From: Devosia sp. MC521 | GTDB lineage: Bacteria > Pseudomonadota > Alphaproteobacteria > Rhizobiales > Devosiaceae | NCBI RefSeq assembly: GCF_014127105.1 | Contig: NZ_CP059902.1 | Location: 2,141,001-2,205,000, forward strand | Length of the DNA stretch: 64,000 nt | Reading direction: 5' to 3' | Part shown: one piece after another, positions 56,386-62,929 of the stretch | Layout of the letters: every line of letters begins with the position of its first letter | Position numbering within the stretch: position 1 is the stretch's first letter | Notes under the pieces: generated by a model | The model's database searches: none | What the model was told of the DNA's origin: nothing | The model's input: only the letters and a program-made list of their open reading frames with translations | Translations under genes and position numbers: made by a program

Positions 56386-56461
<76 letters not shown>

Positions 56462-59267: not shown

Positions 59268-59936
59268 TTATGCTGACTTCCTCTGCTCGACGGGCTCGGC
59301 CAGGCTCTTGCGATATCTGACGAGGCCCAGCTGCCATGCGTGGATGCGCTGCCATGTCAGCTCTTCGAGATCGTCGGTGTTGAAGAACACCTGCTCGCAG
59401 ACGGCAACGATCATGTCCTCGTCGGAGAAAGTGCCGACACCCGGGTCGACGGATCCAAGTTCGAGCATGATGGCCCGAGCGCTGCCATGGTCCAGACGGA
59501 AGCGGGGCTCACAGCTCAACGAGTAGTGCAAGCCGCGGGCGACGTGCTCGAGTATCCAGCGCGGCGTCGTGAGATGACGATTGGCCATCAGCTCGCGCCA
59601 GCCGGCGGTATTGCAGAACTCGCCTGCGAAGCGGGCCTCGCCCTGGTGGCGACGCTCGGCCATGCACTCGGCGTAGACAGGCCGGTAGCCCAAATCCTTG
59701 GCATGGGCATCGAGCCATGGCGCATCATCGAAAGCCGGATGGATCGTGTAGACACGCCCATCCGTGTGCCGCTCGAGTGCGAACATGTGCATCCAGCTCC
59801 GAGCCGACAGGCCCGGCCACGGGCCGTAGTTCGCGAGCGGGAGCGACGGGCCCGGCGGTTTCGCGGCGACGGCCGGCGCCGGCATGGATGCGAAGAGGTC
59901 GAGCTGACGGGGGGCGGGCTTTGTCTTGGTACCCAT
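59268..59936 (-). CDS. Hypothetical protein with a sliding-clamp binding peptide
   Basis: 222 residues from the ATG at 59936, with AGGAGG 6 bases before it; the upstream extension overlaps the ATPase gene and is rejected. Near the N terminus residues 11-15 read QLDLF, exactly the beta-sliding-clamp binding pentapeptide. A Pro-rich linker (17-50) follows, then a folded region with many aromatic residues (WMHMFALERHTDGRVYTIHP, AGWRELMANRHL). The rest of the protein was not recognised. Confidence 0.65.
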   Translation of the reverse strand: MGTKTKPAPRQLDLFASMPAPAVAAKPPGPSLPLANYGPWPGLSARSWMHMFALERHTDGRVYTIHPAFDDAPWLDAHAKDLGYRPVYAECMAERRHQGEARFAGEFCNTAGWRELMANRHLTTPRWILEHVARGLHYSLSCEPRFRLDHGSARAIMLELGSVDPGVGTFSDEDMIVAVCEQVFFNTDDLEELTWQRIHAWQLGLVRYRKSLAEPVEQRKSA

Positions 59937-59937
59937 A

Positions 59938-60921
59938 TCAAACCTCCTGATAGAGCCGGCGCCCGGTGACCCGACGCAGCCCGATGGCGCGCAGGATCGC
60001 CGGCGGGCAAGGTTTCGGACCGGCCTGGGCGGCATAGACGGTCTGCCTGGTGACGCCCCATGCCCGGGCAGCAGCGGCGGCAGTGTACTCGGACTCGATC
60101 GCCCCGGAGAAGTAGAACGACAGCCCGAGGGCCTTCGCGACCTGCTCGGCCATGGTGGTCTTGCCGCTGCCGGCCGGGCCGATCAGGGCGACGTTCTGGC
60201 GCGCGGCGATGCACTGCAGCACCAGCGGGAAGCGCTCATGATACGGGCCGTCCTCAAGGAGGACCTGCGGACCGCCCTTCAAGTTCACCTCGACCTGCGC
60301 GATGCCGATCTGGGAATGCTGGCGGACCAGCTCGGGCAGCTCGGCCTGCGTCACCACGCCTTCGCGGGCACCGGCGACGAGGACCTGCAGGAGCTGCTGG
60401 ATGGCGCCGACGTCGAGCTCAGGTGCAGTGGTGGCAGCAGCCGGCGGTGGTAGCTGGCGGGTCTGCTTGGCTCGGTGCAGAAAAAGTAGTGCTGCCAAGT
60501 TGGCCGCCAGATCGCCCCAACCCTCTCGGGCATAGATCCGCATCTGGAGATCTTTGTGGTCGGCTCCTGCGCCAGCTGCCACCCGGATCGCATCGAAATC
60601 ATCGCTGTCGCGATCCTCGGTCCGGCGGGCATTGTTGGCGTCGTCCAGGATGTCCCATGCCTTGCCAGCGCCGTCGAAAGAACCGATCTCGCGCAGCTCA
60701 CGAAGATCCTGCACCGCTTCGTCCAGCGCCGCGGCGTCGACACCTGTGTACTCGGGTGCCTGGATCTCGATGCCTTCGGTGACGTCTCCCTCTTGGTCCA
60801 AACGAGAGCAGAAATCGACCCACCAATCGTGGCCGACGGGGGTCGCTTCCCACGGCCATGCCTTGACCAGATTCTTGATGAGTGTGGCGCAGCGGCCGGG
60901 TCCGAAGTTCGTGATTGCCAT
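59938..60921 (-). CDS. Truncated AAA ATPase fused to a helix-turn-helix-like tail
   Basis: 327 residues. The first 240 are poorly conserved, with acidic and Ala-rich helices. Residues 248-256 are a Walker A motif, GPAGSGKTT, followed by MAEQVAKALGLSFYFSGAIESEY, typical of phage and CobS/MoxR-like AAA ATPases. The sequence then switches to TAAAAARAWGVTRQTVYAAQ and on to GPKPCPPAILRAIGLRRV, which resembles a small phage helix-turn-helix protein. Walker B, sensor and arginine-finger regions are missing, so ATPase activity is unlikely. Probably the product of a deletion that joined two genes. Confidence 0.6.
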   Translation of the reverse strand: MAITNFGPGRCATLIKNLVKAWPWEATPVGHDWWVDFCSRLDQEGDVTEGIEIQAPEYTGVDAAALDEAVQDLRELREIGSFDGAGKAWDILDDANNARRTEDRDSDDFDAIRVAAGAGADHKDLQMRIYAREGWGDLAANLAALLFLHRAKQTRQLPPPAAATTAPELDVGAIQQLLQVLVAGAREGVVTQAELPELVRQHSQIGIAQVEVNLKGGPQVLLEDGPYHERFPLVLQCIAARQNVALIGPAGSGKTTMAEQVAKALGLSFYFSGAIESEYTAAAAARAWGVTRQTVYAAQAGPKPCPPAILRAIGLRRVTGRRLYQEV

Positions 60922-60984: not shown

Positions 60985-61233
60985 TTAGGGGGTCCAGGAA
61001 TAGAGGCCGACGACGGGGCGATCCCAGCCGGCGGCACGGAGCATGGGGAGCACCTCGGTGGTGCGGCCCTGGAACTCGGGCATCTGCTCGCCGTGCTGGT
61101 CGAAAACCAGCGTCATGCCATTTGTGAAATGGTAGACCTCAGCGATCTCACGGGTCAGATGGACGACAGCGGCATCGGCGAACGCGATCTCGGCCGGCGT
61201 CATGAAGCGGGGCTCCTCGCAGCACTCGATCAT
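60985..61233 (-). CDS. Small hypothetical island protein
   Basis: 82 residues from the ATG at 61233, which overlaps the stop of the upstream gene (ATGA); a longer reading to 61452 lies inside that gene and is basic and unlike a protein. No domain was recognised. The sequence is largely helical with FMTPAEIAFADAAVVHLTREIA. Confidence 0.55.
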   Translation of the reverse strand: MIECCEEPRFMTPAEIAFADAAVVHLTREIAEVYHFTNGMTLVFDQHGEQMPEFQGRTTEVLPMLRAAGWDRPVVGLYSWTP

Positions 61234-62009
61234 GACGCAAACTTCTTGAGCTGGGTGTCCTGATAGGACGCCAGAATCTTGCGGGCGACGCCGACGGCGG
61301 CGTCGTGGTTTGCGCTGCCGAAGCTGGCGCAGCACCAGTGCCCCCAAGGACTGTCCTTGCCGTCCCAGCCAACATTGTTGGGCTCGCTGGAATGGTCCGC
61401 ATCCAGGCCCGTCATGTGCCGGCATGCTGCGACGATCGTGTCCTCGGACCATTCCAACGGAGCCCTGTCGCGGACCACCTTCGCTACATCGCGAGCGAAC
61501 CTGTTCGACTTGATCTCGACGCGGCGGAGCGTCTTCGTCATCTCGTCGACGTCGGTCTGGTAGATCGTCTCCTTGACCGAGAGGCGCTCGAGGATCAGAC
61601 GGTCGGCCTCGGCCATGAACGAGCCGAGCGTTGCCAGTTGACGGTCGATGTTCCTGCGGGTCTCAATCACCGTCTTTGCCCAGAGCGCCTCGGCAGCAGC
61701 CCGCTTCTCCGCACGTTGGGCGTCGACGACGATATCGTACGCGTCCTGCCGGGCACGCTGGGCAATGGCATCGGCCATCGAGGCCTGCAGGGCATCGAGG
61801 CGGTCCTGGTAGTCCACGACTGCAGAGGCGGCGTTCCAGACGACGTCGTATCCGGTGCTGCGGACTTTGATCGAGATCCCGCACGGACGGAGCACCGGCT
61901 TCCCGGCCGGCGTCCACAGCAGCCAGAACTGCTGGGTTGCTGGAGCTGCAAGCACGCCCGGGACAGTCTCAATCCAAGTGAGGTCAACGAGTTTCGGTGC
62001 GGCTCCCAT
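61230..62009 (-). CDS. Hypothetical island protein with coiled coil
   Basis: 259 residues; the ATG at 62009 overlaps the upstream stop by 1 base. A long Ala/Arg/Glu-rich helical region (about residues 65-155) probably forms a coiled coil, and the C-terminal third carries WSEDTIVAACRHMTGLDA and two cysteines in HWCCASFG. No family was recognised. It is part of a compact run of minus-strand genes. Confidence 0.6.
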   Translation of the reverse strand: MGAAPKLVDLTWIETVPGVLAAPATQQFWLLWTPAGKPVLRPCGISIKVRSTGYDVVWNAASAVVDYQDRLDALQASMADAIAQRARQDAYDIVVDAQRAEKRAAAEALWAKTVIETRRNIDRQLATLGSFMAEADRLILERLSVKETIYQTDVDEMTKTLRRVEIKSNRFARDVAKVVRDRAPLEWSEDTIVAACRHMTGLDADHSSEPNNVGWDGKDSPWGHWCCASFGSANHDAAVGVARKILASYQDTQLKKFAS

Positions 62010-62929
62010 CACCGTACCTCGATTTCCTCATCGCCGCGGCGGATGATCACCGAGCGACGGTCGGAGCCAGGACCGCTGGCGGGGGTGCCATTGCACTTGC
62101 CCGGTGCCCACTCGAGGACATCGCAGTCCTCATCATCGACCTCGTCCTCGTCGCGCTGGGCAGAGGCAGCGGCGTAGGCAGTCTCGGTTTGGATCTCGCG
62201 GATCAGGGCCTCGTCATCGGGCGTCATGGTGTAAGCGGTGCCGATATGAAGGTTTTTGAACTGCCGGTCGGAGACGTTGGACCAGTTGCCAACGCCGGCG
62301 GCGGCCATGACATGGGCGGCATCCTCCTCGCTGGGCAGGTCCTCCTCGGCGATCAAACCGGCATCGAAGGCAGCCTTGCGGGCCAATAGCTCGCGCTTGC
62401 GGCGCATGCGGTCGATCTCGAGAGTCAGCCCAGCGACCGTCTCAGTATCGACGGCCTCGATCCGCTCGAGGAGCTTCTCTCGGTCGCGGATGAGATCATG
62501 GACGAAGCCAACAAGGTCGATGCCCTGGGAAGCGTCCTCGTCGTCGTCGGAGAGGTTCTCATACAGCTCAGCGATGGTGCCGGCGCCGTAGCCGGTGGAC
62601 TCCCCGAGCAGCCACATATCGATCTCGAACCTGCGACGTCCTCCCGTCAGAGATGCCACGCCGATCTGGACGTCGATCGACGTGAGAACGTCGCGCAGCC
62701 CGTGCAGCGTGCGGGTCGTATCGGCCAGATGGTCGATCGTGAAGCGATCGACGGGATGGCCGCGCTCGGCGGAGCCGTCGAAGGCCTTCACGGCATTTTC
62801 TTCCTCGGCGACGAGGTAGCCCTCGACGGAAAGAAGATGGTCGATCATCTCGTCCAGGTTCTCCTTCGAGAACGGGACATCCAGACAAGGCTTCGCCGTG
62901 GCGCCCGAAGGCGCGGAATTTTTCGTCAT
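62009..62929 (-). CDS. Hypothetical acidic island protein
   Basis: 306 residues, strongly acidic, with a helical, coiled-coil-like middle (LIRDREKLLERIEAVDTETV, then TLEIDRMRRKRELLARKAAF) and a C-terminal acidic loop (DEDEVDDEDCDV). No signal peptide, membrane segment or known motif was seen. The start MTKNSAPSGATAKP is the first ATG after the upstream gap of 32 bases. Confidence 0.6.
   Translation of the reverse strand: MTKNSAPSGATAKPCLDVPFSKENLDEMIDHLLSVEGYLVAEEENAVKAFDGSAERGHPVDRFTIDHLADTTRTLHGLRDVLTSIDVQIGVASLTGGRRRFEIDMWLLGESTGYGAGTIAELYENLSDDDEDASQGIDLVGFVHDLIRDREKLLERIEAVDTETVAGLTLEIDRMRRKRELLARKAAFDAGLIAEEDLPSEEDAAHVMAAAGVGNWSNVSDRQFKNLHIGTAYTMTPDDEALIREIQTETAYAAASAQRDEDEVDDEDCDVLEWAPGKCNGTPASGPGSDRRSVIIRRGDEEIEVR

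Follow-up and report, generated by a model that had tools for sequence, protein, structure and literature searches.

The open reading frame at 59938-60921 of the window (the whole stretch of DNA analysed here, 64,000 nucleotides of the Devosia sp. MC521 genome) is probably a chimeric gene remnant that lies in a 51.5-kb integrative element, stems from illegitimate recombination, has no ATPase activity and most likely serves no function. It carries the start of a phage MoxR-type AAA core followed by the end of a small helix-turn-helix (HTH)-like protein. This agrees with the initial annotation, which had described an AAA ATPase cut after Walker A and joined to an HTH-like tail: the AAA profile ends at residue 280 and the HTH-like profile is confident from 281. 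The features concerned are given below; positions beyond the window continue its numbering.

59938-60921, minus strand: chimeric ORF, 327 aa, ATG start, frame open over its full length
60421-60921, minus strand: residues 1-167, N-terminal region for which no relatives were found
60082-60258, minus strand: residues 222-280, start of the phage MoxR-type AAA core (beta-1, Walker A 248-255, alpha-1, beta-2)
60084/60085, minus strand: junction, at about codons 279/280
59938-60084, minus strand: residues 280-327 and stop codon, end of the small HTH-like protein family
59268-59936, minus strand: next gene, 222 aa
58563-59165, minus strand: phosphoesterase (phrog_547)
60985-61233, 61230-62009 and 62009-62929, minus strand: three same-strand genes upstream of the chimera
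56386-56461, plus strand: tRNA-Thr, within which the left attachment repeat starts at 56411
106335-107801 (window-continuous): tyrosine integrase, adjoining the right attachment repeat

The AAA portion is assigned by several lines of evidence. Residues 222-280 match the phage AAA family phrog_249 in PHROGs, and a profile of 86 relatives, consisting of the best 80 of 174 confirmed viral-contig loci and 6 others (L002, three phages and two whole-genome loci), matches the same residues with 75.8 bits (E 1.7e-25 as a one-sequence search) and ends at 280. The 86 include near-copies and represent 83 distinct core sequences. Another scan, of genome contigs and represented by the best 80 of 176 relatives, gave mostly matches of 34-35 residues around Walker A and was not used; an earlier scan of genome contigs gave no relative. 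Over residues 222-280 the chimera resembles phrog_249 ATPases (annotated 'porphyrin biosynthesis') such as Sinorhizobium phage phiM5 gp64, Mycobacterium phage Lolly9 gp134 and Rhizobium phage P106B gp25; these relatives, however, extend far past Walker A and in most loci adjoin a DUF7192-like ORF, neither of which is true of the chimera. A continuation of the AAA similarity past residue 280 was considered and rejected: the phrog_249 and L002 matches do extend to residue 296, yet for phrog_249 the gain from the tail is a mere 1.3 bits, and the end of the 86-relative profile (best 80 of 174 plus 6) at 280 also speaks against it.

In the ATPase part, a Walker A motif, GxxxxGK[T/S], follows beta-1 (G248-T255), and 25 residues are retained past its lysine, K254, in keeping with the 20 or so counted in the initial annotation. 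Walker B, expected about 58-69 residues from the start of Walker A, is absent, whereas 84 of the 86 relatives (best 80 of 174 plus 6; exceptions L050 and L036) carry a Walker-B-like motif, by a loose pattern, 50-80 residues past Walker A. Counting from where Walker A starts, the chimera has 80 residues, whereas the 86 relatives (best 80 of 174 plus 6) have a median of 228; the shortest uncut ORF among them measures 181 residues (L036) and the next at least 211. Four members of this set (L054, L060, L063 and L100) run into a contig end, and no uncut ORF in it ends as near Walker A as the chimera does. Of 21 positions invariant over 23 hand-picked relatives from the 86 (best 80 of 174 plus 6), 6 precede the junction, and the other 15, past it, are missing from the chimera; the lost positions include what we take to be the sensor 1 Asn, the arginine finger and sensor 2.

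The model of the intact relative L002 is good (block-mean pLDDT 88-98 for residues 181-420), with strands that include 200-203, 225-228, 260-265, 300-306 and 332-335, and its best solved folds are the MoxR-type AAA+ proteins NorQ and CbbQ (PDB 9qh4 and 6l1q; E 3.4e-14 and 7.0e-14, respectively), compared with which the chimera retains only the first part of the core. The model of the chimera reaches pLDDT 92-97 (by tens) for residues 221-270 and averages 64.8 overall; it has no strand in 241-279, and at a threshold of E 0.001 it matched none of the solved folds, a result that counts little for so weak a model. The alignment behind it had rows for the AAA part only, and the low confidence of the tail is not evidence. 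The absence of these strands agrees with the fold as known: for motor-type P-loop proteins a passage of PMC7758060 gives the sheet order 2-3-4-1-5; beta-1 and beta-2, the sole core strands kept in the chimera, are thus not neighbours. Since Walker B is gone, hydrolysis of ATP by the chimera would be very unlikely. Binding of nucleotide also appears unlikely, yet is conceivable because binding of both nucleotides and DNA is described, in an excerpt of PMC10119929, for designed beta-(P-loop)-alpha polypeptides. The earlier suggestion that the protein binds nucleotide without hydrolysing it is therefore not borne out, as the chimera no longer has the strands bearing Walker B and the motifs after it, and its model is strandless in 241-279.

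The tail comes from a second family. Searched alone, its final 47 residues have matches in 8 of 75 same-genus genomes, own included (best E 3.5e-12 in another genome), whereas residues 1-280 match only the genome's own sequence among the 75, so that the two parts belong to two families. As the initial annotation had anticipated, searching both parts separately thus yields hits in two families, and full-length ATPase relatives exist. The relatives of the tail are separate proteins of about 113-118 aa (L003, L004 and L029) with whose C-termini it aligns, the last 47 residues being 57-64% identical (64% in the closest, L023/L029); the N-terminal 65 or so residues of these proteins are missing from the chimera. 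When 7 HTH-like relatives are combined into a profile, its match covers residues 263-327; the pairing confidence is 0.5-0.9 over 263-280, the part shared with the AAA match, and high from 281. Since the AAA match claims 222-280 and the HTH-like pairing is confident from 281, the junction is set at 279/280, with a leeway of a few codons. Seen from the tail side its position is somewhat less sharp, because the HTH-like profile reaches back to 263 with middling confidence. The tail is accordingly 48 residues long (280-327), not 49 as first counted, and the view that it is the C-terminal part of a small protein which probably binds DNA is supported.

The tail family may be a DNA-binding HTH protein, as suggested by weak sequence matches to Pfam HTH_23 (E 0.025) and to 8 PDB sequences (E 0.03-0.96) that we take to be HTH proteins. 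In viral contigs (125 stretches) no relative of this family was confirmed, and in phages it had no match. Gene order is partly shared with the intact relatives, as a phosphoesterase lies downstream in both. Three of the 7 other same-genus genomes that match the tail were examined, and in all three it follows the intact HTH-like gene, immediately in L027 and L029 and after a gap that could hold one gene in L028; in the window, one gene separates the chimera's tail from the phosphoesterase. L028 is collinear with the window further upstream and has an intact HTH-like gene and no ATPase.

The reading frame is embedded in an operon. Its ATG is preceded by AGGAG, and the AGGAGG for the next ATG (59936) sits inside the last codons of the tail; the frame is open through the junction and the operon continues, just as had been noted at the outset. 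The 3' end of the frame coincides with the C-termini of the HTH-like family's own proteins. A promoter and terminator scan gave nothing better than shuffles. The N-terminal 167 or 170 residues had no relative in viral contigs or phages. Residues 16-41 (60799-60876, minus strand) weakly match the C-terminal part of phrog_16354 (E 2e-4), a 76-aa phage family with no assigned function, and because of this match the N-terminus may itself be another fused module. A literature search listed no paper on the chimeric gene.

The chimera is part of a roughly 51.5-kb element integrated in tRNA-Thr, as indicated by attachment repeats, an integrase and steps in G+C content at both ends. A 24-bp exact repeat occurs at 56411 and at window-continuous 107915; G+C steps up at the tRNA, from about 0.53-0.58 to 0.63, and drops near 108 kb, from 0.66 to 0.51; the interior shows some dips. 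A second repeat, of 22 bp, lies just inside both ends (56517 and 107769). Head, tail and terminase families were absent at E 0.01 from the 25 of 57 predicted element genes scanned against PHROGs (chimera not counted).

Other genes of the element show shortening as well. A second AAA gene at 79555-81027 (L017:15555-17027, minus strand) lacks 34 aa, in frame, by comparison with a paralogue at 102542-104119 that is 68% identical; the lost piece contains ATAN and a DR motif, which presumably resemble sensor 1 and the arginine finger. The two genes belong to similar blocks, 77626-81027 and 101028-104119, within the one element, one of them shortened beside a transposase, and between the blocks lie a manganese catalase gene and a glycosyltransferase gene. 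A phosphoesterase copy is likewise shortened next to a transposase. No separate AAA back half was found within 144 kb by tblastn and profiles, and the other AAA genes scoring there each have their own P-loop. One such gene, 74727-75746 beside a McrBC-like gene, matches L002 residues 200-346 (E 1e-6) and was considered as the rest of the AAA core; having its own P-loop, it is a different protein.

Taken together, decay is the best supported of the three origins offered in the initial annotation, namely decay, assembly error and functional fusion. In the sequence of events that we consider most likely, illegitimate recombination would have fused the 5' part of a phage MoxR-type AAA gene, with the frame kept, to the final 48 codons of a small HTH-like gene, either (i) through a deletion in an element holding both genes or (ii) through module exchange between two related elements, with a breakpoint within the HTH-like gene. 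The AAA core from beta-3 on, the usual DUF7192 gene and the front of the HTH-like gene would have been left out. Exchange is as plausible as deletion, because the collinear L028 has no ATPase; no ancestor in which the AAA gene and the HTH-like gene are both intact was found. The open frame that ends at the HTH-like family's own C-terminus and the AGGAG before the ATG are a counterpoint to decay; the frame could have persisted through an in-frame junction arising by chance and the gene's embedding in an operon. In this regard, PMC6379469 describes, in the part concerned with 'grounded' prophages, that these are prone to deletions and new ORFs, and the loss of genes together with a new ORF formed by deletion in an integrated element would be alike here. 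That review covers the process generally and not this chimera, and the present element showed no head, tail or terminase family among the 25 of its 57 genes scanned.

A misjoin of two genes during assembly would also look like a junction at one point. The genome, however, is a single contig of 3.78 Mb, 99.94% complete, and the halves that such an error should have left elsewhere do not appear in it: the best match to the back half of L002 is at E 0.18, and with a complete HTH-like relative as query the tail itself and a single further match at E 0.53 came up, both being distant queries of limited sensitivity, while all 13 phrog_249 matches begin at or before the P-loop region, leaving no headless back half. 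Additionally, no repeat of at least 13 bases at the junction occurs within 144 kb, a 201-base segment spanning it is single-copy in the genome (apart from 8 weak matches of 16-34 bases), and the reading frame is preserved. Because these searches found the missing halves nowhere else in a one-contig genome and no such repeat at the junction, assembly error, which the initial annotation had left as an option, is unlikely. That the ORF represents an established family of this length and domain order, and not a truncation, is hardly credible. The open frame alone speaks for it, and such a family, named at the outset as the case against a truncation, was sought and not found. The full protein matches 6 of 101 genomes, and both parts together occur only in its own. 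Residues 1-280 are found in 1 of the 75 genus genomes, again its own, and in 3 of 397 genomes of the order, two of these over the P-loop region alone (at most 6 candidates scored per genome). Viral contigs yielded one relative, over the AAA part only, and no exact copy of the junction in a pattern search, and among the 327 phage records that matched, none reaches 80% coverage of the query.

Also improbable is a working fusion that would regulate the element, with a P-loop fragment binding nucleotide or phosphate and a DNA-binding tail. The open frame, the Shine-Dalgarno-like sequence and the operon position are consistent with it, as are the confident modelling of the P-loop part (pLDDT 92-97 for 221-270) and the ligand binding of the designed polypeptides in the excerpt of PMC10119929. 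On the other hand, the chimera has lost the strands that come later in the core as well as 15 of the 21 invariant positions, Walker B included, the HTH part is without the first half of its family, and both parts coincide in just 1 of 101 genomes; the strandless 241-279 segment and the missing solved-fold match point the same way, with little weight given the weak model (mean pLDDT 64.8). There is a very slim chance that a natural beta-alpha-beta P-loop fragment acts here as a soluble nucleotide- or phosphate-binding module which, coupled to a DNA-binding tail, would make a new regulator of the element. The fragment is cut much like the models of ancestral P-loop peptides, and, if functional, it would be a natural test of whether a beta-P-loop-alpha-beta piece alone is a ligand-binding module.

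The gene that the AAA family normally has beside it deserves separate mention. A DUF7192-like ORF is present in 75 of the 86 AAA loci (best 80 of 174 plus 6). It follows the ATPase in 67 of them and precedes it in 8; all 75 share the ATPase's strand, and 71 lie within 300 bases of it. These ORFs were found with a profile of our own iterated on the same loci, and Pfam confirmed PF23822 in all four tested. The remaining 11 of the 86 loci (best 80 of 174 plus 6) are without one, some being cut by the end of the stretch. The pairing with a phage MoxR-type AAA gene is seen in L002, L032, L033, L035 and most of L037-L116. No DUF7192-like ORF was found by profile search within 144 kb around the chimera; PF23822 matched 0 of 75 genomes of the genus, where the control matched nowhere either, so that absence is not demonstrated. 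A search of one literature library gave no paper on DUF7192. NorQ and CbbQ operate with VWA-domain partners and, because its AAA partner folds like them, DUF7192 may by analogy be the phage counterpart of a VWA-type partner.

A recombination chimera in a mobile element is ordinary, and remnants of this kind are expected there. What sets this case apart is its unusually clean delimitation: the parent families, the junction and the intact relatives are all known, and the chimera should therefore not be annotated as an ATPase. The common phage AAA-DUF7192 gene pair, with an AAA partner resembling NorQ and CbbQ, is perhaps the more interesting lead.
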